Assembly: GCA_017987115.1 (NCBI GenBank)
Contig: JAGNUG010000011.1
Coordinates: 1 to 55,474 of the forward strand
Reading direction: 5' to 3'
Length of the DNA stretch: 55,474 nucleotides
DNA from: Flavobacteriales bacterium
GTDB lineage: Bacteria; Bacteroidota; Bacteroidia; Flavobacteriales_F; PHOS-HE28
The position numbers were made by a program, and so were the translations under genes. Shown one piece after another: positions 15,172 to 46,061 of the stretch (positions within the stretch are counted from its first letter, which is position 1; the number at the start of each line of letters is the position of its first letter). Under the pieces are notes generated by a model that was not told the DNA's origin, ran no database searches, and saw only the letters and a list, made by a program, of their open reading frames with translations.

Positions 15172-18100
15172 TTATGGCAATTGCTGCAATACCGTGTTGG
15201 TAGGTACTACACCGCCAATATTCTCCAGGATCAGATCACGGTCATTCGGTGCACCGGTGTATTTCACGACGCCGCTCATATCGGTATCCTCCAAATAATA
15301 ACCAGCAATGGAATTGGTCGGTACAATTCCGCCGATGATCCCAAGGATCGGGTCGCGGTCATTATTCGAACCAGTGTATTTAAGGACACCGTCCTTAATG
15401 GAATTACCGCTCCAAAGCATTGATCTGTTGTCTTTCGTCATCCGGGCGTTCGTACCCCAAGTGAGTGTCGAGGAGCTTCTGAAGTCAACAACCACAGGCG
15501 TTGCGGACAATGCCACAGAGTTCAAGGTCATAACACCGAGATGATTCCTATGTCGGATCGATACTTGGTAATTTCCATCCGGAACCTGCAGCTGCACAGC
15601 AGATGTGCCATTTTTGTTCACTACATCCCCATCGCGCTGCAACAAGGCGCTTACCGTGGCGATGACGGCATATGGTACTGTAGTGGATCGTACTTCCACC
15701 ATTACCCAATCCACAATTGCATTATTACCGGTAACAGCCAGTACACCGCTACTGGTCTGTTCCCCGCCACCACCGTTCACGTGGGTGAAACCTAGCGCAG
15801 TGTAGGGCTCGGTCAATGGTATCAACGATGCCGAACGAAGGTTGTCATTCATCAACTGTGTAGCGACATTGTACGGGCCAGCCAACCAGATCTTCGGGTT
15901 AATGGTCACTGTGTTCGGAGTAACTGCACATGAACCGGTTATCGTAGTAAGCACGTTATTGCCTTGTTCGTTCACAATGTCCGTAATGTTGGCGATACAA
16001 ATGTTCAGGTCGTTGAGGTTGAGGTACGTGATCCGGCATAGCGGAACATACTCCGTGTTCTTCGCCATTGAGCTATCGATGTATGATAGCCCTATGACTT
16101 TGGTTCCACCCAGCGATGTTTCCATGGCAATATCACCGATCAGACTTGGCACAAGGTTCTGAACGCTTTGGATCGTGAGACCGCTCATTTCGAACTCATA
16201 GCCCATAACGCGGTTATTGGGGTTGCGGATCATGATATCCACGGTTCTTGCGATCGGGTCCACAGCGCCAAGTTGAAGGTCCACGTTGACGCCGGTATCC
16301 GTCCAGCCGCGCGGGAAATCGCACCAAGGGTGGTAATGCAGTACGTGTCCGGTCTGGTCGTGAATGTCCTGCTGATTGTAGCAATTTGCCATCAATGCGG
16401 CATCCATGACCGTGATCACATTATCACCGTTCAGGTCGTTACAAGCAGTTGGTGAAATATCATTTCCCAAAATGGCCTGGACATATTCTTGCGCATCAGG
16501 CTGGGTCTGGTTGCCATCTGCATTCAGATCACCCATTTTGGCAGTGCCGTTGCATGCACCGGTACAGTCGAATCGTGCATCGCCGTAAGGTTGACCTAGG
16601 CAGTCCGTATAAGCAGGACAATCATTGATCAACGTGAAGGACGGTTCGTTCTGCGCATTGCGGGTAAGGTCGATACAGACCTGTGCGAAATTGTTGGAAT
16701 AATCGAGTTCATGCCGTCCCAAAGCATCGGGTGTACGGAGCCAATTCGTTCGTAGAACAAGTGTGTACTGTCCAGCAGGCACATCAGTAATATCGATCCA
16801 ATTGCATGTAGTGCCCGAACCATAGATATCGTAACAGCCCTTGCTGATACCCATGTTGCTACAACCGTACTGCCCTGTGAAGCCAGGGTTGCAACCCACA
16901 TCGATCACACAGAAGCCGTTCTTGAAACCAACTGGGATCGTATTTCCACTCGCGTCGAACAACACATAATCAGCGTAACCCGCGTAATGCGCGTGGCCAT
17001 GGCAATTGTCGAAACTGAAGGACGAAGGATGCGTTGTAGGATTACCGATGTAGTAATCCGTAGTGCCAATGTTCTCGATACGTGTTGTAAAGCGCAGAAC
17101 ATTCCGCGTACCAAGACCTTTGGTGCAACCTTCCACAGGTGCGCATTGATCGGTGATGTTGACCGTGCTCAAGTAAATACTGCTCGCTAATGCGCTGGTA
17201 CTCATTATCAGGTCTGGCCCATCTGTACATTCCGGACTTCCGGGAGCAATACAGCACGTACCACAATCCACCGTGGCCAGCGGGTCATAATTGCAGGAAC
17301 CTGGATCCATGCAACCAATTACAGGACCGTTGTAGATGATCGAAAAAGTGACCTGACCACCACAATCTCCGTCATTATCTCCAACCCGAAGATGATGCAC
17401 TACGCCAGCAGGCATATTTGCGTTGACGACTGCTTGCAGGCCGCACCCACCTTCATTGTCATCTCCGAATGTCGCACCTTCAATGCCATCGCTCAACACG
17501 ATCTGATTGCAGGCCATATCATAAAGCCAAAGGCGCGTATCACAGGAATTGCTCACACAGGTTGAGATCGTATAGGACCCGGGTTGTGGAGGTGTGAAGT
17601 CATACCAAGCCTCAATGCTGGGTGTGGTTACCGTTGCCAGCGTTACCGGAAAGGTTGTTCCTACAGGAGCTAAGGTCAAGGGGAGCGGTGATGTACATGA
17701 AAAACCTGGAGGGCAATTGAATGTAGTCTCTTCAAATGACCCGAATACTCCTCCAGCGAGCACCAACGTCTGATCGGAATAGAGCCAATACCCACCATAA
17801 CCATAGCTATTGTGGTAGATACCATCGCCTGCGGTATCATTGATCCGGAAGACCAAGCACGCATCGGAAGGCACACAAAGCGTGGTGCCATTGGAAGTGC
17901 CACTTGCCAGCGTCAGGTTGGTTGCACCGTCCTTCAATGTCCATGACGTTTCTTGTGGATAGTTGTCCTTTACGATATCGATCCGTATACGACTTTGTCC
18001 TGCGGGGCAAGAATAATCGCATGAGTTGTTGTTGATGTTTACACTTGCGTTGTAGTTGTTCGCAGTTGTTTCACTACATCCTACAACCGGAACCAAGCTT

Positions 18101-18684
18101 CCAACGAACACATCGTCGATAGCAATGTCGCTGGTTTCACCACTTCCGGTCACTGCACGAAAAATCAAACGTGTGTTGATCAAGTTTCCGTAGCTCGAAA
18201 GGTTGATCCAACCTTGTTTCCAATAAAGGCCCTGGTCGCCACTGGTACTCCAGACATTTGATACAACGGCACCATTCAGGTTCAGATCAACATGAAGCGA
18301 ACCCGATTGTGCTCCACGCATGTGGTACCAGAAGGTTACATAGGGAGAGGTGACACCAGAAAGTTGATAGCAAGGAGATGTCAGAAGAGCTGTCTTATTC
18401 GGCGTATTTCCACCTCCTGAGGTCTCAACGTACATGTAGGTTCCCGATGTGCTATTGGACGTATGGTCACCGATCGGGCCGGTATTGGCCGTAGGCGTTC
18501 CATTTTTATCCACCCACCAATCGAGATCATCCGCGCCGGTATTTATCCAATTATTCTCCAGGGTGCCAGGCGAACCTGCCGTAAAGTTGGTAAATGATTC
18601 GTTGGAGGGGAATGAGGTTACGCACTGAGCAAAGAGAGTACTTGCGGCGCAGCACGCGCCGATCAAGGCAGAAGATCTGAACAT
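15172..18684 (-). CDS. Giant secreted lysyl-oxidase-domain protein with MAM-like, dockerin-like and cohesin-like modules
   Basis: 1170 residues from the ATG at 18684, which gives a signal peptide (MFRSSALIGACCAASTLFAQ). Residues ~20-165 are a MAM/concanavalin-like domain. Residues ~490-680 match lysyl oxidase: FDNCHGHAHYAGYADYVLFD contains the copper-binding His cluster, GFKNGFCVID supplies the Lys and CNWIDITDVPAGQY the Tyr that form the quinone cofactor in animal enzymes. Residues ~716-766 look like a dockerin (GDLNADGN ... LNGDNVITVMDA), then ~795-910 a cohesin-like region. The last ~240 residues are a module shared with the 42996 gene, with two EF-hand-like loops ending in VPTNTVLQQLP. 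It probably oxidises Lys side chains or amines in the extracellular matrix. No ordinary T9SS domain is seen. Confidence 0.85.
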   Translation of the reverse strand: MFRSSALIGACCAASTLFAQCVTSFPSNESFTNFTAGSPGTLENNWINTGADDLDWWVDKNGTPTANTGPIGDHTSNSTSGTYMYVETSGGGNTPNKTALLTSPCYQLSGVTSPYVTFWYHMRGAQSGSLHVDLNLNGAVVSNVWSTSGDQGLYWKQGWINLSSYGNLINTRLIFRAVTGSGETSDIAIDDVFVGSLVPVVGCSETTANNYNASVNINNNSCDYSCPAGQSRIRIDIVKDNYPQETSWTLKDGATNLTLASGTSNGTTLCVPSDACLVFRINDTAGDGIYHNSYGYGGYWLYSDQTLVLAGGVFGSFEETTFNCPPGFSCTSPLPLTLAPVGTTFPVTLATVTTPSIEAWYDFTPPQPGSYTISTCVSNSCDTRLWLYDMACNQIVLSDGIEGATFGDDNEGGCGLQAVVNANMPAGVVHHLRVGDNDGDCGGQVTFSIIYNGPVIGCMDPGSCNYDPLATVDCGTCCIAPGSPECTDGPDLIMSTSALASSIYLSTVNITDQCAPVEGCTKGLGTRNVLRFTTRIENIGTTDYYIGNPTTHPSSFSFDNCHGHAHYAGYADYVLFDASGNTIPVGFKNGFCVIDVGCNPGFTGQYGCSNMGISKGCYDIYGSGTTCNWIDITDVPAGQYTLVLRTNWLRTPDALGRHELDYSNNFAQVCIDLTRNAQNEPSFTLINDCPAYTDCLGQPYGDARFDCTGACNGTAKMGDLNADGNQTQPDAQEYVQAILGNDISPTACNDLNGDNVITVMDAALMANCYNQQDIHDQTGHVLHYHPWCDFPRGWTDTGVNVDLQLGAVDPIARTVDIMIRNPNNRVMGYEFEMSGLTIQSVQNLVPSLIGDIAMETSLGGTKVIGLSYIDSSMAKNTEYVPLCRITYLNLNDLNICIANITDIVNEQGNNVLTTITGSCAVTPNTVTINPKIWLAGPYNVATQLMNDNLRSASLIPLTEPYTALGFTHVNGGGGEQTSSGVLAVTGNNAIVDWVMVEVRSTTVPYAVIATVSALLQRDGDVVNKNGTSAVQLQVPDGNYQVSIRHRNHLGVMTLNSVALSATPVVVDFRSSSTLTWGTNARMTKDNRSMLWSGNSIKDGVLKYTGSNNDRDPILGIIGGIVPTNSIAGYYLEDTDMSGVVKYTGAPNDRDLILENIGGVVPTNTVLQQLP

Positions 18685-18722
18685 TGTAGAGCTGGTTTGA
18701 TCGCTCAAGATACCGCATATTT

Positions 18723-18738
18723 CCATACCTACGTATGG
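18723..18738. promoter_or_regulatory. Palindromic candidate operator between divergent genes
   Basis: Perfect dyad CCATAC-CTAC-GTATGG in the 119-nt spacer between the divergent lysyl-oxidase-like gene and fabI. It lies about 17 nt upstream of the fabI promoter TTG box. No regulator is identified. Confidence 0.4.
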
Positions 18739-19616: not shown

Positions 19617-19674
19617 TGGCCCGCTCCGAATGCCGGATCCTGTGGTTAACAAAGATGGTCAGGTTCGAAGTATC

Positions 19675-21837
19675 ATGATCCGATCCAGTCATATCTGGTT
19701 TGTTAGCGTTCTGTTCCTATTGAGCGGAACTATCTGCGCGCAGGGTGGAAAAGGGTTCTTGAAGGAAGGTGATGCATTCCGCGAACAGAACGAATTGAGC
19801 AAGGCAGTTGAGCGCTATAGCCTTGCTATTGATGTTGATCCGCAATACATAAAGGCCTATTTGGCACGGGCTGAAGTATTTCAGCAAATGGGCCGGCCGG
19901 CGGATGGAGCGTTGGACCTGCATAAGGCGGCTGACCTGGAACGTGGCGACGCGGATCTTGCGGTACGTGCGGCACAGGCCTATTTGACAGTTGACAGTCC
20001 TTTGATCGCGCGCGAATTCCTGGACCGTGCATTGGAAGTGGATAGAAAACACATGGAAGCCGTGCAGACCATGGTACGGGTTTGTTTGGCATTGAATGAT
20101 GTGGATGCAGCTGCTAACGCTGCTGACAAAGCGTTGGGAATGAAAGCCACTACTGACACGTATTACCTCCACGGCTTGGCGCGCATGGCGGTGCACGATT
20201 ACGCTACGGCTGAGACCGACTTTGATAAAGTGATCTCGTGGAATCATCTTTATGAACCCGCTTATGTCGCATTGAGCGAAACACAACTGAAATTGTATGA
20301 TCGATACAGCGGCCTTACGATGCAAATGCGTGCATTGGAAAAAGCGATCGAGAAATGTGGAACCGCGTTGGAGTTGAACCCGCGTAGTACGGATGCGTTA
20401 TTCACACGCAGCAAAGCATTTGCACTGCAAAAGGATTATGCAAGAGCGATCGATGACATTAGCAGATGCATAGCCTTGGAACGGACCGATAAAGCAGTGT
20501 ATCATCAGCGTGCAACCTACTATCATGGTTTTGGGCAACATCAGAATGCGGTGAACGACCTGAACAAGATCCTGCTTGATGACCCGAATGATGTTCCGGA
20601 GTTGTTGTTGCGCGCTGAATGCAAGGAAGCCAATCTGGATATGAATGGAGCCTTAAAGGACCTGGATGCTGCTGCCAAGGTGATGGATACAGCAGGTACA
20701 TGGCCTGCGGAACAGCGCACTGATATTGAAACTCGCCGAACGCGGATAGCTGCCGCGATATTTGAAATGGAACGAGAAAGTGATGCTCCGGATATTACGG
20801 TGATCGAACCCTACAGAAAGGGAGACATTGCCCAGGTAAGCGCGGCCTTGGACCATGTGAAGGTGAGCGGGCACGTGCGAGATAGAAGCCTATTGAAAAG
20901 CATAACCGTCAATGGTCTGATGGCAGATTTCACGAAGGATGACAAGGATCCTGAATTCGTGATCAGTGTGCCGTTATCCAACGATGAAAAGACCATTACC
21001 GTTCAAGCAGTTGATGTTTACGACAACTTGAAGACCGAGGATATCACAGTGGAGCGTTCAGAAGGCATCGCACCTAGCATCGTGCTCACATCGCCTGCAA
21101 CCAGTGGTGATCGTACCATCATGCTTGAAGCCGGTAAGAATGAGTTGTTCATCGAAGGTACTGTGACCGATGCCAGTTTGATCCGTTTGGTGGCTGTGAA
21201 TGGTGTGAATGCCAGTTACGCCCCTGATCAATTGGATCCTGAATTCAGTATAAAGGTTGAACTGGATGCGAAAGAGCGTTTTACAGTGCGCGCGGAAGAC
21301 CAGTATGGTAATGCAGCGGAAGCTAACTATACGATCGTTCGGAAAGCCGCACCTGTGGTAATTGCGAAGCCACCAAAGCCTGATCCCAATACAACGGCAA
21401 GAACCGGCAGCACAGGGGTTACTTGGATCATTGCGATCGAGAATACGAATTATAAGGACTTTCCTGCGCTGCAAGGAACGGCATCTGATATTGCCAAGAT
21501 GAATAAGGCGTTTGCGAACTATTCAGCTCAAAAGACCATTACCAAGAAGAACCTGAGCAAAGAACAATTGGAGCGCTTCTTCAACATTGAATTGCGTGAC
21601 CTGGTCCGAGTTAACAAGGTGAATACCGTGCTGGTCTGGTATAGCGGTCACGGACGAACCGTAGGCGGCAAGGCCTACTGGGTACCCGTAGATGCGAAAA
21701 ATGATGATATTTATTCCTACTTCAACTACGGATCATTGAAGAGATTGATGCAGAATTACAGTGAGACCGTGACCAATACGCTCGTCGTAAGTGATGCAGC
21801 TGGATCGGATCCGTCCTTCTACGAATTGACCAGATGA
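19675..21837 (+). CDS. TPR and caspase-like (C14) protein lacking the catalytic Cys
   Basis: 720 residues from the ATG at 19675, which gives a signal peptide ending GTICAQ; an ATG 45 nt upstream is possible. Residues ~20-370 are TPR repeats (KAVERYSLAIDVDPQYIKAYLARAEV). Two Ig-like strand-rich regions follow (~395-570). Residues ~585-720 are a caspase/metacaspase domain (WIIAIENTNYKDFPALQGTASDI) with the catalytic His659 in WYSGHGR. The usual DACxSG motif is DAAGSD here, so the Cys is replaced by Ala709, and the protein stops 11 residues later although homologues continue. It is probably a pseudo-protease used for binding. The stop overlaps an ATG of the cyclase frame by 4 nt, pointing to coupled expression. 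Confidence 0.85.
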   Translation: MIRSSHIWFVSVLFLLSGTICAQGGKGFLKEGDAFREQNELSKAVERYSLAIDVDPQYIKAYLARAEVFQQMGRPADGALDLHKAADLERGDADLAVRAAQAYLTVDSPLIAREFLDRALEVDRKHMEAVQTMVRVCLALNDVDAAANAADKALGMKATTDTYYLHGLARMAVHDYATAETDFDKVISWNHLYEPAYVALSETQLKLYDRYSGLTMQMRALEKAIEKCGTALELNPRSTDALFTRSKAFALQKDYARAIDDISRCIALERTDKAVYHQRATYYHGFGQHQNAVNDLNKILLDDPNDVPELLLRAECKEANLDMNGALKDLDAAAKVMDTAGTWPAEQRTDIETRRTRIAAAIFEMERESDAPDITVIEPYRKGDIAQVSAALDHVKVSGHVRDRSLLKSITVNGLMADFTKDDKDPEFVISVPLSNDEKTITVQAVDVYDNLKTEDITVERSEGIAPSIVLTSPATSGDRTIMLEAGKNELFIEGTVTDASLIRLVAVNGVNASYAPDQLDPEFSIKVELDAKERFTVRAEDQYGNAAEANYTIVRKAAPVVIAKPPKPDPNTTARTGSTGVTWIIAIENTNYKDFPALQGTASDIAKMNKAFANYSAQKTITKKNLSKEQLERFFNIELRDLVRVNKVNTVLVWYSGHGRTVGGKAYWVPVDAKNDDIYSYFNYGSLKRLMQNYSETVTNTLVVSDAAGSDPSFYELTR

Positions 21838-21881
21838 GCAAGCAGACGGCAGGAAGCGTATTTTGCCAGTCTCTTCACCTA

Positions 21882-24800
21882 ATGATCATACGATATTCCC
21901 TTCTTGTTTCATTTCTCCTACTGGCCTTTAGTGGCAAAGCACAGCGCTACTTTTTTGAGAATGTTGGCGTGCAACAAGGGCTGCCAGCGTCCAAGGTATA
22001 TGCAATCGTAGAGGACAGAGCCGGAAAGATCTGGATCGGTGATGAAGCTGGTATCTCCAGATACAATGGAAACTCGGTTACGAGTTTTGGCACCACTGAA
22101 GGTGTATCACAGAATGGGGTTCGCGCATTGTACATGGATACGCAAGGCAGGATCTGGGCAGGTCACTTAGGAGGTGGACTAACCGTTGTTCAAGGGAATA
22201 CGTTTCATAAGATCGCACTATCCGGAACTGATATCGAGAGCGATATAACCGGAATCACAGAGGATGCATCGGGCGCTATCTGGGTGTGTACGTTCGGCCA
22301 AGGGGCGTTCCGGTTCCCTAAAACTTCTGATCTGAGCGGAATAGAAGCCGAAACATTCAGTGCCAATGATGGAATACCGAACAAACTCACGTCCATTTTA
22401 CGCTTGAAGAATGGCACGATCTGTTTTACGGATGCATCAGGAAGTATTAGTAGCTATAACTCCGGTAAGAAGAAGTTCGAGCCATTCCCGGTCAAGGGGT
22501 TGCCCAATGGTCAACGTGTCACCACGATCTTTGAGGACAGCCAAGAAAGCTTATGGATCGGAACCAATTTTGGTGGTGTATTCCAATACGATCCACAGAA
22601 TAATACGACCATGACCTACGACATTGCGAACGGGTTGCCGAGCAATTTCGTTTTCAGCATCGCTGAGGGGGAGAAAGGGAATATTTGGATCGGGACCTGG
22701 GATGGCGGCATCGCCAGGATCGAGGAAAGTGGTGTGCGAATTTTCAACCCCAATAACGGGCTGCATGGAAATGCGATCCGCTGTATGGTACGCGATCATG
22801 AGGGAAATATGCTTATCGGTACCAACGAGAACGGCTTGGATATATTCAAAGGTGAACGGTTCATTAGTTTCAATGAAGCTGATGGATTGATCGAGCCGCA
22901 GGTGTGGGCGATAATGGAGGACGACCAGGGTAGGCTATGGTTGGGAACCAACGGGGGTATCAGTATTCTGGATCCCACCGGAAAAAGCACTGCGCGAGTG
23001 AAGAATTTAACGATGCAACAAGGAGATCTCACTAGCAATGAAGTTCGTGATCTGGTACAGGATAGGAGGGGCAATGTGTGGATCGGAACGGAGAACGGAG
23101 GTCTCTTCGAATTTGATCCGCGCACGTTCAAGTTCCGCTATGACCTGGAGATCAGTGGAAACATTCCAGGGAACCAAGTAACCGCATTGGCGTTGGGTGA
23201 AGGAAATGAACTTTGGGTCGGTACCGTTAATGGGTTGATCCGTTATACGCCCGGCACCATACCCATAACCATCAATACGAATGATGGTCTAGCAGGAGGA
23301 CAAGTGACCAGTATCTATAGAGATCCACAAGGAATATTTTGGGTTGGTAGTGTATTGAAGGGCATCACCCGGATCGAGAATGGAACGGCAAAAGCGGTGG
23401 TTATTGATCGCTCGTTCACGGCAACGTGTTTCATTCAGGATAAAGAAGGCCGTTTGTGGGTCGGCACAGAAGGGCAGGGCGTTCTTGTATTGAAGGACGG
23501 CGTGTTGAAAGCCGAATACACAACTGAGCGCGGACTGCTTTCGAATTCCATACGTTCCTTGAACATCGACAATGAAGGACACGTTTGGATCGGGAGCAAT
23601 CGTGGACTTAACAAATGGCGTCCGAAAGCGGATGGCTTCATTTCTTACACGGAACGAGCGGGTTTCACCGGCATCGAGGCCAAACCCAATTCCACCTACT
23701 TAGCACGTGATGGATCGTTATGGTTCGGAACCGCAAATGGCGCAACCAAGGTCGCATCGGTAAAAGCACTTGACAAATTGCCTCCGCCGATTACCACTAT
23801 TGATGGGCTTCAGGTCAATTTGGAGAAACACGCCTTGGAAGAAGATCCAAGTTTGGATCACACACAACGCAGTATACGGTTTGATTACAGCAGTGTATCG
23901 CTCACTGATCCAGCTGCGGTCATGTATCAGTACAGGTTAGATGGACTCGAAGACGATTGGCAGCCACCTACGTCGGAAACCTCCATTCACTATCCGGCAT
24001 TACCGCCGGGTTCGTATACGTTCCAGGTAAAGGCAATGAATCGTTCCGGTACGTGGAGCGATCCACCGGCAGAATATCCATTCACCATTTTACCTCCATG
24101 GTATAAGTCATGGTGGTTCTATTCGTTGGTCGCGTTGGTGCTGGCGATCGGATTGTTCAGTTATATCAAAGTGCGGGAACGCCAACTGAAACAGCGCAAT
24201 GCAATTCTTGAGCAAAGGGTCACGGAGCGCACTGCGGAAGTTGTCGCTCAGAGCAAGGAGATCGATGGACAGAAAGTTCGGATCGAGGAATTGCTGCTCA
24301 ATATTCTTCCCAAGGAGATCAGTGAGGAACTGAAGGAAAAGGGAAAGGCTACCGCTCGTCGTCATGAACACGTATCCGTCATGTTCACGGATATGAAAGG
24401 GTTTACGAAAGCTGCGGAGAATATGACACCGGAGCAATTGGTGAACGAGCTGGACGAGTGCTTTATCCAGTTCGATGCGATCGTTGGGCGTTACGGGATA
24501 GAGAAGATAAAGACCATTGGAGATAGCTACATGTGTGCGTGTGGGGTACCCGTTGCGGACGAGCACCACGCTTGGAAGAGCGCACTTGCCGCGTTGGAGG
24601 TGCGCACACTAATGGCCAAATGGAGAACCGAACGTGAATCAAAAGGCCTTGTCCCGTGGTTGCTCAGGATCGGGATCCACAGTGGCCCTCTTGTTGCTGG
24701 GGTCGTTGGTAAGAGAAAATTCGCATACGATATCTGGGGCGACACGGTGAACACTGCAAGTCGCATGGAAAGTAGCGGTGAGATCGGCGAGGTGAACATC

Positions 24801-24992
24801 AGTGAAACGACCTATCACTTGATAAAGGATCGCTTTGAATGTGACCATCGTGGTGCTATTGAAGCCAAGAACAAAGGCAAGATCGACATGTATTTCGTGC
24901 GTCGAATAAAACCGGAGTACAGCGTCAATGGTTCCGGAAGCGAACCGAATGATCGATTTCTTGAAGAAATGGGACTGCTGGTCGAGGCCTGA
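21882..24992 (+). CDS. Propeller sensor adenylate cyclase (class III)
   Basis: 1036 residues from the ATG at 21882, which gives a signal peptide (MIIRYSLLVSFLLLAFSGKAQ). The upstream ATG at 21834, overlapping the preceding stop, would add 16 residues. Residues ~22-640 contain about twelve Reg_prop beta-propeller repeats (GKIWIGDEAGISRYNG type), then a Y_Y_Y domain, a membrane helix (~750-770), a coiled coil, and a class III nucleotide cyclase domain (~828-1000). Metal-binding Asp residues are in MFTDMKGF and TIGDSYM. EKIKTIGD (Lys) and YDIWGD (Asp) point to adenylate rather than guanylate. The layout is that of a hybrid two-component periplasmic sensor with the kinase replaced by cAMP synthesis. 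Confidence 0.9.
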   Translation: MIIRYSLLVSFLLLAFSGKAQRYFFENVGVQQGLPASKVYAIVEDRAGKIWIGDEAGISRYNGNSVTSFGTTEGVSQNGVRALYMDTQGRIWAGHLGGGLTVVQGNTFHKIALSGTDIESDITGITEDASGAIWVCTFGQGAFRFPKTSDLSGIEAETFSANDGIPNKLTSILRLKNGTICFTDASGSISSYNSGKKKFEPFPVKGLPNGQRVTTIFEDSQESLWIGTNFGGVFQYDPQNNTTMTYDIANGLPSNFVFSIAEGEKGNIWIGTWDGGIARIEESGVRIFNPNNGLHGNAIRCMVRDHEGNMLIGTNENGLDIFKGERFISFNEADGLIEPQVWAIMEDDQGRLWLGTNGGISILDPTGKSTARVKNLTMQQGDLTSNEVRDLVQDRRGNVWIGTENGGLFEFDPRTFKFRYDLEISGNIPGNQVTALALGEGNELWVGTVNGLIRYTPGTIPITINTNDGLAGGQVTSIYRDPQGIFWVGSVLKGITRIENGTAKAVVIDRSFTATCFIQDKEGRLWVGTEGQGVLVLKDGVLKAEYTTERGLLSNSIRSLNIDNEGHVWIGSNRGLNKWRPKADGFISYTERAGFTGIEAKPNSTYLARDGSLWFGTANGATKVASVKALDKLPPPITTIDGLQVNLEKHALEEDPSLDHTQRSIRFDYSSVSLTDPAAVMYQYRLDGLEDDWQPPTSETSIHYPALPPGSYTFQVKAMNRSGTWSDPPAEYPFTILPPWYKSWWFYSLVALVLAIGLFSYIKVRERQLKQRNAILEQRVTERTAEVVAQSKEIDGQKVRIEELLLNILPKEISEELKEKGKATARRHEHVSVMFTDMKGFTKAAENMTPEQLVNELDECFIQFDAIVGRYGIEKIKTIGDSYMCACGVPVADEHHAWKSALAALEVRTLMAKWRTERESKGLVPWLLRIGIHSGPLVAGVVGKRKFAYDIWGDTVNTASRMESSGEIGEVNISETTYHLIKDRFECDHRGAIEAKNKGKIDMYFVRRIKPEYSVNGSGSEPNDRFLEEMGLLVEA

Positions 24993-42995: not shown

Positions 42996-45900
42996 TTGAA
43001 CATGATGAAATACGTTAGCCTATTGGTGGGCTTAATGCTTGTTTTCCCCTCCTTGGCGCAGAAAAGAGTTGACCTCCATAACGCGGTAGTCGTCCCGATG
43101 ACCTTTCACGGTGAAACCCAAGCATACAGAGACTGGGATCCTCGTCAGGAGTTCGTGAATACCATAGTGCGGAATCATGATGGAGTACTTGTTGAGCACG
43201 AAGAGTTGGAGAACAAGGGACTACACCAAAAGACCAACCCGAATGCATTGCCCCAAGGTCTTGATCCTGTTCTACAGAGTAGAAATGGAGCGAAGACCAA
43301 TGATGAACGTGCGCTTGACCTTTCCATCAATGGAATGACCAATACAGGTGTAAGCCCAGCTGATCCGTGTCTGGACGTTGGTCCGAACCACGTTATTCAA
43401 ATGATCAATGGTGGTTCAGGCGCTTATTTCCAGATCTTCAATAAATCCGGAACATCCTTGGGTGCTCGGGTGTATTACGACAATTTCTTCAGTACACCAG
43501 GTGGTCTTGGAGACCCGGTCGTATTGTATGATGAATTAGCAGACCGGTGGTTGATGAGTGAATTCGGTAGCAGCGGGAACCACCTTTACGTGGCGGTATC
43601 CACAACTCCGGATCCAACTGGCACTTGGTATTCATATGATTTTACTACTCCGAATTTCCCGGATTATCCAAAGTATAGTGTTTGGAATGGTATGTATATG
43701 GTCACCAGTAATGAGGGCACGGGTTGTCCTATCTATGCCCTGGATCGCACTAAAATGTTGGCGGGCAATGCAACAGCAACCTCTCAACGGTTTACCACAC
43801 CTGACTATGGCTCAATTGGTTTTCAAGCAACCACACCGATCACATTTGACGGCGCTACAGCTCCTCCTGCCGGTGCGCCCGCAATGTTGATGCGAATGGC
43901 CGATGATGGCTGGTCCGGTGCAAGCACCGATCGCTTGGAGATCTGGACCCTGACCGTTGATTTCAATACACCCGCTAATTCAGTGCTTTCGAATCCGACC
44001 TACCTGAACGTTTCCCCATTCGATACGGACCTCTGTGGGTATACATCATTTTCATGCATAGACCAGCCTGGATCCAATACGAACCTTGATCCCTTGCGTG
44101 AAGTGATCATGAACCGCGCACAGTACCGCAATTTCGGCACCCACGAATCCATTGTTTGCAACCACGTAACTGATGTGAACGGGAACGATCGTGCGGGCGT
44201 GCGTTGGTATGAATTGCGCCGTGTTGGTGGCGCCACCCAACCATGGTCCATATATCAGGAAGGCACCTATTCGCCAAATAGCGATAGCCGTTGGATGGCC
44301 GCTATCAGCATGAACAGTTCCGGTGATATTGGCCTCGCTTATAGCGTATCCAGTTCCACCACGTATCCATCGTTGCGCTACACGGGCAGAAATGCAAGTG
44401 ACCCGCTTGGTCAGATGACCGTTGCCGAAACGAGCATCATTACAGGTACCAGCCCCAATAGCTCCAACCGTTGGGGAGACTACTTCTCTTTGGACACCGA
44501 CCCGGTTGATGGAAGCTTTTGGGGTACAGGATGCTATAATACGGCAACTGCATGGGGCACACGGATCTATCGGTTTTCCATCCCATCCTCGCTATGTACT
44601 CCGGCAACTGCTGCGGCAACTCCTAATTGTATTAGCACCACTCAGTTCGAAGTGAATGTGAACCTCACGGCGTTAGGTGATGCCAATTCCGTGAACATTC
44701 AAATTGACAGTGATGGCGTGGGAGGAAATACTCCGGTAACCGTGGCAACGACGAGTTCTACAGGAGCTTTCGGCCCTTACGGACCATATGCGAGCGGATC
44801 TCCGGTGATCGTATATGTGCGCCACGATCAATATGCGGAATGCGACATAACGCTAAGTAATGTGGTAGGTGATTGCAATTCTCCAGGAGCGGGATGTCAA
44901 TTCAGTAGTACCGCAACCACGGCCATTGTGGACAACAGCACGGTTACGAATACCATTGTTGTTCCCTCGCAAGGAGGAGCTACGATCAGCGACCTGAACG
45001 TTTACGTAGATCTCACGCACACCTACACTGCTGATCTTCGTGTAACGCTGGCATCGCCTACTGGTACAACGGTTGATCTCATTGCAAGTGGAAAATGTGG
45101 TAATAGCGATGATATGACCGCAGAATTCGACGACACAGGTGTTGATGGAGCAGTAGGAGCTACGTGTCCGATGGCCGCACTGTTCGTTATTCCGGAGAAT
45201 GCGCTGAGCGGATTCAACGGTGAGGTGATCCAAGGCACTTGGACATTGAGCATTCAGGATGTGGCAACGCAGGATCAAGGAACCTTGAATAACTGGTGCC
45301 TGATCCCTACCTTGAATAGCGCATCAGGTGTGCAACTTGCGATAAACGTGTTTTTGGAAGGACCTTATAATGCCGGTTCCGGCTTTATGAATGATGACAT
45401 TCGCGCTGCGAGCATTCTGCCATTGACGGAGCCTTATTCCCCTGGATACCCGTTCATTGGAGGTGGCGGCGAAACGATCTCTGCATCGGTCAGGAACGTT
45501 ACAGGGACCAATGCGATCGTTGATTGGGTCGTGGTAGAACTCCGTAGCGCCGGTAATAGTAGTACGATAGTTGCCAGCAGGGCAGCACTCGTGCAGCGCG
45601 ATGGCGATGTGGTGGATCTGGATGGAACTTCAGATTTGACCATGAACGTTGCGGCTGGAACCTATTTCGTAGCATTAAGACACCGTAATCACCTAGGGGT
45701 AATGGCCACACCGGCTAGTGTATTGTCCAGTACACCTACAACCGTTGACTTTACGAATTCAGCAACGAGTGTTTATGGTACTGAAGCACGCAAAAGCGTG
45801 GGCGGTAAAGCGGTCTTATGGGCCGGGGACGTGACATTCAACGGTGTATTGCAGTACACGAATACCGGAAATGATCGCGACAGGATCCTTTTGGAGATCG

Positions 45901-46061
45901 GAGGAACCGTGCCGACAAATACAGTGGCAGGGTATGCGCCGGAGGATGTAAACATGAACGGCGAGATACGCTACACCGGAACGAACAACGATCGTGATAT
46001 CATTCTTGAGAATATTGGTGGGGTTGTCCCTACGAATACGAGAACGGAACAGCTACCATAG
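42996..46061 (+). CDS. Giant secreted protein with proprotein-convertase P-domain and shared C-terminal module
   Basis: 1021 residues. Signal peptide MMKYVSLLVGLMLVFPSLAQ. Residues ~100-590 form an uncharacterised, strand-rich domain with VSPADPCLDVGPNHVIQM and RWMAAISMN, probably a beta-propeller. Residues ~633-768 are a P/Homo B domain (DLNVYVDLTHTYTADLRVTLASP, NNWCLIP). The last ~240 residues match the C-terminal module of the lysyl-oxidase protein (RHRNHLGVM, VQRDGDVV) and end with two EF-hand-like loops and VPTNTRTEQLP. A terminator follows. The P-domain without a subtilase domain suggests binding rather than proteolysis. Confidence 0.85.
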   Translation: MNMMKYVSLLVGLMLVFPSLAQKRVDLHNAVVVPMTFHGETQAYRDWDPRQEFVNTIVRNHDGVLVEHEELENKGLHQKTNPNALPQGLDPVLQSRNGAKTNDERALDLSINGMTNTGVSPADPCLDVGPNHVIQMINGGSGAYFQIFNKSGTSLGARVYYDNFFSTPGGLGDPVVLYDELADRWLMSEFGSSGNHLYVAVSTTPDPTGTWYSYDFTTPNFPDYPKYSVWNGMYMVTSNEGTGCPIYALDRTKMLAGNATATSQRFTTPDYGSIGFQATTPITFDGATAPPAGAPAMLMRMADDGWSGASTDRLEIWTLTVDFNTPANSVLSNPTYLNVSPFDTDLCGYTSFSCIDQPGSNTNLDPLREVIMNRAQYRNFGTHESIVCNHVTDVNGNDRAGVRWYELRRVGGATQPWSIYQEGTYSPNSDSRWMAAISMNSSGDIGLAYSVSSSTTYPSLRYTGRNASDPLGQMTVAETSIITGTSPNSSNRWGDYFSLDTDPVDGSFWGTGCYNTATAWGTRIYRFSIPSSLCTPATAAATPNCISTTQFEVNVNLTALGDANSVNIQIDSDGVGGNTPVTVATTSSTGAFGPYGPYASGSPVIVYVRHDQYAECDITLSNVVGDCNSPGAGCQFSSTATTAIVDNSTVTNTIVVPSQGGATISDLNVYVDLTHTYTADLRVTLASPTGTTVDLIASGKCGNSDDMTAEFDDTGVDGAVGATCPMAALFVIPENALSGFNGEVIQGTWTLSIQDVATQDQGTLNNWCLIPTLNSASGVQLAINVFLEGPYNAGSGFMNDDIRAASILPLTEPYSPGYPFIGGGGETISASVRNVTGTNAIVDWVVVELRSAGNSSTIVASRAALVQRDGDVVDLDGTSDLTMNVAAGTYFVALRHRNHLGVMATPASVLSSTPTTVDFTNSATSVYGTEARKSVGGKAVLWAGDVTFNGVLQYTNTGNDRDRILLEIGGTVPTNTVAGYAPEDVNMNGEIRYTGTNNDRDIILENIGGVVPTNTRTEQLP

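Follow-up and report, generated by a model that had tools for sequence, protein, structure and literature searches.

A gene for a caspase-like protein that lacks the catalytic cysteine lies directly upstream of a gene for a predicted sensor cyclase in an uncultured member of the Flavobacteriales, which raises the question of whether such a protein is a product of decay or a conserved component and, if the latter, what it does beside the sensor. The two genes lie in a 55,474-nucleotide stretch of DNA (the window; contig JAGNUG010000011.1 of assembly GCA_017987115.1), part of a 3.73-Mb assembly of 202 contigs that is about 96% complete. In the collection searched, the order to which this genome belongs consists of one genus of 45 genomes of uncultured Flavobacteriales. 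Relatives outside the genus were sought across the class in 395 genomes, a sample of a larger group. The genomes used are mostly metagenome assemblies.

Anatomy of the caspase-like protein and its sensor neighbor

The caspase-like gene (19675..21837, forward strand, as are all features of the pair) is predicted to encode an exported protein with TPR, Ig-like, and p20 parts. The ATG at 19675 is a likelier start than position 19630, where a longer open reading frame begins, given the signal peptide MIRSSHIWFVSVLFLLSGTICA predicted by eye from the sequence at 19675..19740. The peptide is followed by a TPR region (19747..20754), which matches Pfam TPR families and is helical in the AF2 model; by two Ig-like domains of the Glucodextran_B type (20806..21363; PF09136, E = 1.6e-11, in two stretches), which the model renders as beta strands; and by a caspase p20 pseudo-domain without a p10 (21421..21834). 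The match of the protein to Peptidase_C14 (PF00656; E = 4.4e-10, 40.1 bits against a cut-off of 21.4) spans positions 5 to 128 of the 233 in the profile, i.e., the p20 half only. The first-pass annotation had described a histidine kept in YSGHGR, DAAGSD in place of the catalytic DACxSG, and a stop 11 residues farther on, and all three proved correct when the sequence was reread. The histidine of the former dyad is His674 (21649..21651; absent from some relatives), the site of the catalytic cysteine is Ala724 (21799..21801), and the protein stops 11 residues past that position at a TGA codon following SFYELTR (21835..21837). The accompanying view that the protease is dead likewise agrees with the sequence, in which the cysteine is replaced and the p10 half is gone.

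By its profile match, the protein has the p20 fold of Peptidase C14, but the His-Cys dyad is broken (Cys to Ala), and there is no p10 after the p20 as in bacterial type I metacaspases. Judged by its sequence, it falls within the published definition of a pseudo-orthocaspase (PMC6426788), namely, a p20 without a p10 and with at least one dyad residue substituted. In that study (Front Plant Sci 2019), 858 of 9,994 bacterial orthocaspases were pseudo-forms, including 10 of 1,078 in Bacteroidetes, and those described were mainly Tyr-Ser variants from Alphaproteobacteria and Cyanobacteria. The window protein resembles them in its p20 fold, missing p10, and substituted dyad but differs in its Cys-to-Ala replacement, in the loss of p10 from a p10-bearing ancestor, and in its fixed linkage to a sensor cyclase.

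In a full-length AF2 model, computed from 7 sequences only, the TPR region was good and the Ig-like domains were fair, with most of the p20 below a pLDDT of 60; the p20 modeled alone reached 58.5. Foldseek returned no match at E < 0.001 with this weak p20 model. VIA placed caspase large subunits near the top of its results with a Z score of about 6, which is weakly supportive because they tied with other alpha/beta folds. A sequence search of the PDB gave the MALT1 paracaspase as the sole match, at an E value of about 0.003.

The downstream gene (21882..24992, with an alternative start at 21834) encodes Reg_prop, Y_Y_Y, and Guanylate_cyc domains. The Reg_prop propeller, presumed to be periplasmic, occupies approximately 21945..23903 (PF07494, E = 5.9e-65) and is followed by the Y_Y_Y domain (23907..24092; PF07495, E = 3.4e-16), a transmembrane helix picked out by eye in the sequence (SWWFYSLVALVLAIGLFSYIKV, 24108..24173), and a class III cyclase catalytic domain (24354..24899; PF00211, E = 1.9e-54). 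The first-pass annotation had also remarked that the caspase stop overlaps a possible sensor start. The ATGA is indeed present at 21834, but the signal peptide of the sensor starts at the ATG at 21882 (+44 nt), and the overlap is not a conserved feature, since relatives place the sensor start anywhere between −4 and about +70 nt relative to the caspase stop.

Six catalytic or adenine-specifying residues, placed by alignment to AC9, are intact in the window sensor (first codon base: D 24390, K 24510, D 24522, D 24729, N 24750, and R 24762) and invariant in all genus sequences that reach those positions. By the established roles of these positions in class III cyclases, they comprise both metal-binding Asp residues, the adenine-selecting Lys and Asp, and the transition-state Asn and Arg; from this residue set, the output domain is predicted to be a class III adenylate cyclase, a homodimer of which would carry two complete sites. 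The sensor also matches the PycC profile (E = 8.7e-17), as is expected of any class III cyclase, and its residues point to adenine. Its flanking genes encode the pseudo-caspase and a NUDIX protein, and no cNMP-gated effector of the kind found beside the pyrimidine cyclases of Pycsar anti-phage systems was seen adjacent to it.

Two other genes of the window are recorded here as separate observations. A large secreted protein with MAM and lysyl oxidase domains (PF01186, E = 4.5e-30), unusual in bacteria, is encoded at 15172-18726 on the reverse strand, and its gene is kept beside fabI and the pseudo-caspase gene in several genus members. At 42996-46061 (forward strand) lies the gene for a 1021-aa protein whose sole Pfam match at E < 1e-6 is a proprotein convertase P-domain.

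Conservation and ancestry of the truncated p20

Homologs of the pseudo-caspase were found with a whole-length profile in 42 of the 45 genus genomes, and the C-terminal half was matched in 41. The cysteine loss and the truncation are conserved: all 39 genomes with a contig reaching the C terminus, the window's included, lack the cysteine and have an identical end point, typically SFYELTR followed by the early stop. The cysteine position holds Ala in nearly all genus members, Ser in one (L057), and Val in one. The dyad histidine is gone in three (L025, L026, and L032), and a few members have Lys or Asn instead of the Asp preceding the cysteine position. The p20 is nevertheless the best-conserved domain of the protein, with a mean pairwise identity within the genus of 73%, compared to 59% for the TPR region and 57% and 54% for the Ig-like domains. 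In close genus pairs, the dN/dS of the p20 is mostly lower than that of the TPR region, at 0.018 for L049/L050 and 0.08 to 0.19 for most others, and it rises to about 0.5 at most between more distant members, although these values are rough because dS is probably underestimated through codon bias. Since the active site drifts while the p20 is conserved, the domain has been kept and the active site has not.

Full-length relatives were found in about ten families of the class. In an active-site alignment, 32 of 39 relatives from outside the genus keep GHG and DAC and reach a common C terminus; two of these were compared to the caspase profile and matched positions 3 to 223 of 233. In the sister order (f33), each of the 23 relatives whose end is complete is full length. 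One genome of that order also carries a second caspase copy interrupted by stops (TGA and TAG; G436:C27:13552-14424), likely a pseudogene. The other 7 of the 39 relatives are dead, and none is truncated. They include an f27 paralog (L178 and L181) that is full length with Cys replaced by Thr (DATETG), the first copy, beside a SpoIIE sensor, being intact. In an f3 group (L180, L182, and L185 to L187), both His and Cys are altered (SGQAQ/DAADxG and more divergent forms); these proteins are full length, have no sensor neighbor, and from their sequences appear to be an independent pseudo-caspase lineage. Together, the dead forms of the genus, f27, and f3 indicate that pseudo-forms arose at least three times in the family.

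Truncated forms were absent from the 32 intact and 7 dead class relatives and from the 23 complete-ended relatives in the sister order, and among the genomes searched, p10 loss is exclusive to the window's genus. The p10 region has not been displaced downstream, where the sensor gene begins within −4 to about +70 nt of the caspase stop. Relatives with an intact cysteine and a longer C terminus, which the first-pass annotation regarded as potential evidence of a local frameshift or decay, do exist, but all of them lie outside the genus. With the altered form fixed and conserved throughout the genus, they represent the ancestral state and not local decay in the window.

Linkage to the sensor and exchange of its output domain

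The sensor-cyclase gene is directly downstream of the pseudo-caspase gene in 28/28 genus loci examined. The sensor-cyclase ortholog is missing as well from G019 and G028, two near-complete genomes that have no pseudo-caspase: their best sensor matches have 38 to 44% identity over partial length, compared to 54 to 64% over the full length for orthologs, and neither gene is present at the syntenic site, which fabI and the NUDIX gene bound. This double absence may reflect a single loss because the two genomes look closely related. Both genes are also missing from a third, less complete genome (G025). In the two near-complete pair-less genomes, the fabI-NUDIX interval encodes a secreted protein of 282 aa whose C-terminal tail is T9SS-like (L219, 7680-8528; L220, 5450-6298).

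Outside the genus, 19 of the 32 intact relatives are located immediately upstream of a membrane sensor with Reg_prop and Y_Y_Y domains that ends in a SpoIIE phosphatase. These pairs occur in seven families (f6, f20, f27, f29, f33, f41, and f44), and in two further intact relatives (f18 and f33), the neighboring propeller is cut by the contig end. A cyclase-type sensor neighbor was found for none of the 32. No sensor neighbor accompanies the intact relatives of f3 and f62 or that of one f33 genome; thus, the caspase protein can work without the sensor. No published name was found for the caspase and SpoIIE-sensor pair identified in this analysis. It shares with the window pair a homologous TPR/Ig-like caspase protein, a homologous sensor half, and the gene order but differs in possessing the active-site cysteine and p10 and in having a SpoIIE phosphatase output instead of a cyclase. 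The coupling of pseudo-caspase and cyclase put forward in the first-pass annotation is upheld, as an evolutionary tie between the genes, by the constant linkage, the co-absence in two near-complete genomes, and the ancestry shared with intact caspase-SpoIIE pairs; the signaling scaffold that it also suggested would be a putative one.

In a tree of the propeller and Y_Y_Y regions, the genus sensor groups with the caspase-linked SpoIIE sensors of f33 (100/99), within the caspase-linked set (99/99) and apart from the unlinked propeller cyclases and kinases of the genus. The caspase tree agrees, uniting the genus with f33 and f62 (96/92) on a long genus stem (1.47 changes per column). Full-length caspase-linked SpoIIE sensors scored 263 to 563 bits (at least 355 in all but one), compared to 224 to 259 bits for unlinked propeller cyclases. 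The linker and cyclase domain resemble those of other genus cyclases, with 48 to 55% identity in the catalytic domain. The sensor thus shares the propeller ancestry of the caspase-linked lineage but carries Guanylate_cyc in place of its SpoIIE output. Because its propeller half falls among the caspase-linked SpoIIE sensors and not with the other propeller cyclases of the genus, the output domain was exchanged; with an inherited sensor half and a new, genus-like cyclase half, the protein is best described as chimeric. Wholesale replacement by another propeller cyclase of the genus is ruled out by the propeller tree and the bit scores. No intermediate was found that would place cysteine loss, p10 loss, and cyclase swap in order.

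The sensor half is the one found in the Reg_prop and Y_Y_Y (two-component-regulator-propeller) sensors of Bacteroidota, other genus copies of which end in a histidine kinase or a cyclase; what distinguishes the window lineage is its genetic tie to a caspase-like partner. Similarly, the cyclase has the full catalytic and adenine-selecting set of class III adenylate cyclases and shares about half of its residues with other genus cyclases, but it differs in its attachment to a propeller that descends from a SpoIIE sensor.

A proposed role and its alternatives

We propose that the ancestral pair comprised, as in other Bacteroidia, an intact caspase and a propeller sensor with a SpoIIE-type phosphatase and that, in the ancestor of the genus, the protease lost its cysteine and p10 and the sensor traded its phosphatase for a cyclase. 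The first gene would now yield an exported TPR/Ig-like protein whose p20, fixed in a proteolytically dead state, has no p10 after it, and the second would yield a sensor in which a single membrane helix joins the periplasmic propeller and Y_Y_Y domain to an adenylate cyclase in the cytoplasm. The pseudo-caspase would most likely be a periplasmic subunit of the propeller that binds or regulates without proteolysis, and it would set the cAMP output, which cNMP-binding proteins in the cytoplasm would read. The window genome encodes five cNMP-binding proteins, along with five domains each of the class III cyclase and SpoIIE types.

We assign a probability of roughly 0.6 to the reading of the periplasmic pseudo-caspase as a non-proteolytic regulator of a transmembrane adenylate cyclase within an ancient signaling pair. 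Anatomy, conservation, linkage, co-absence, the domain swap, and the intact cyclase residues support it; the export of the protein, its direct contact with the sensor, the signal received, and the direction in which control runs are what we infer for the pair. The intact relatives that do without a sensor neighbor count against this reading, as do the weak AF2 model of the p20 and the fact that adjacent genes can share expression without contact between their products. The more specific proposal, that an ancient caspase and phosphatase-sensor pathway was rewired so that a p20-only pseudo-enzyme directly regulates the cyclase and the output passed from SpoIIE to cAMP, stands at about even odds. 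No support was found for the stress or death control through cAMP suggested in the first-pass annotation.

The pseudo-caspase could instead be a structural or ligand-binding envelope protein, in which the TPR and Ig-like domains matter most, that is coexpressed with the sensor without touching it while the cyclase responds to a signal of its own. Those domains are generic binding modules, and a sensor neighbor is missing beside some of the relatives, intact and dead alike. However, the p20 is more conserved than the TPR and Ig-like parts, the linkage extends across seven families and every genus locus examined, and two genomes lack the pair as a whole, so that we consider this explanation unlikely, if still a serious competitor. 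Residual enzyme activity, through another nucleophile or a p10-like partner that completes the domain in trans, could draw on the His and nearby Ser of some relatives and on the Ser at the cysteine position of L057. It is very improbable given the Ala in nearly all members and Val in one, the loss of His and of the Asp before the cysteine position in several, and the lack of a further C14 domain in the genome.

Dead caspase domains in animals can act as decoys or dominant-negative regulators of active caspases. Animal pseudo-caspases such as c-FLIP keep a dead caspase domain for signaling; c-FLIP retains its p10 and regulates a caspase, whereas the window protein has no p10 and belongs to a genome without an active caspase. 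Because no second Peptidase_C14 domain was found in the window genome (about 96% complete), a decoy of a sibling caspase was rejected, and a c-FLIP-like role is more improbable still. A local frameshift, decay, or assembly error at 21790-21837 was dismissed as next to impossible despite the longer intact relatives outside the genus, as 39 separate assemblies, some with just 1 to 9 contigs, have the same end and an open frame and the protein is strongly conserved to its last residues, which also settles the doubt about read quality raised in the first-pass annotation.

None of the open-licence papers searched combined metacaspase, adenylate cyclase, and propeller. Nor was the p10-bearing ancestry, the bare p20 ending just past the lost cysteine, or the pairing with a swapped-output sensor found in those papers. 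Pseudo-caspases are already known; the truncated, cyclase-paired form is new. To our knowledge, few pathway partners of bacterial caspase relatives have been identified, and the gene pair, in its intact and dead forms, names a propeller sensor as a caspase partner. The genus and its relatives provide a natural experiment in which the same partnership joins an intact caspase to a phosphatase or a dead caspase to a cyclase. The pair thereby makes testable the idea that the bacterial caspase fold may serve as a protein-binding signaling module and not only as a protease.
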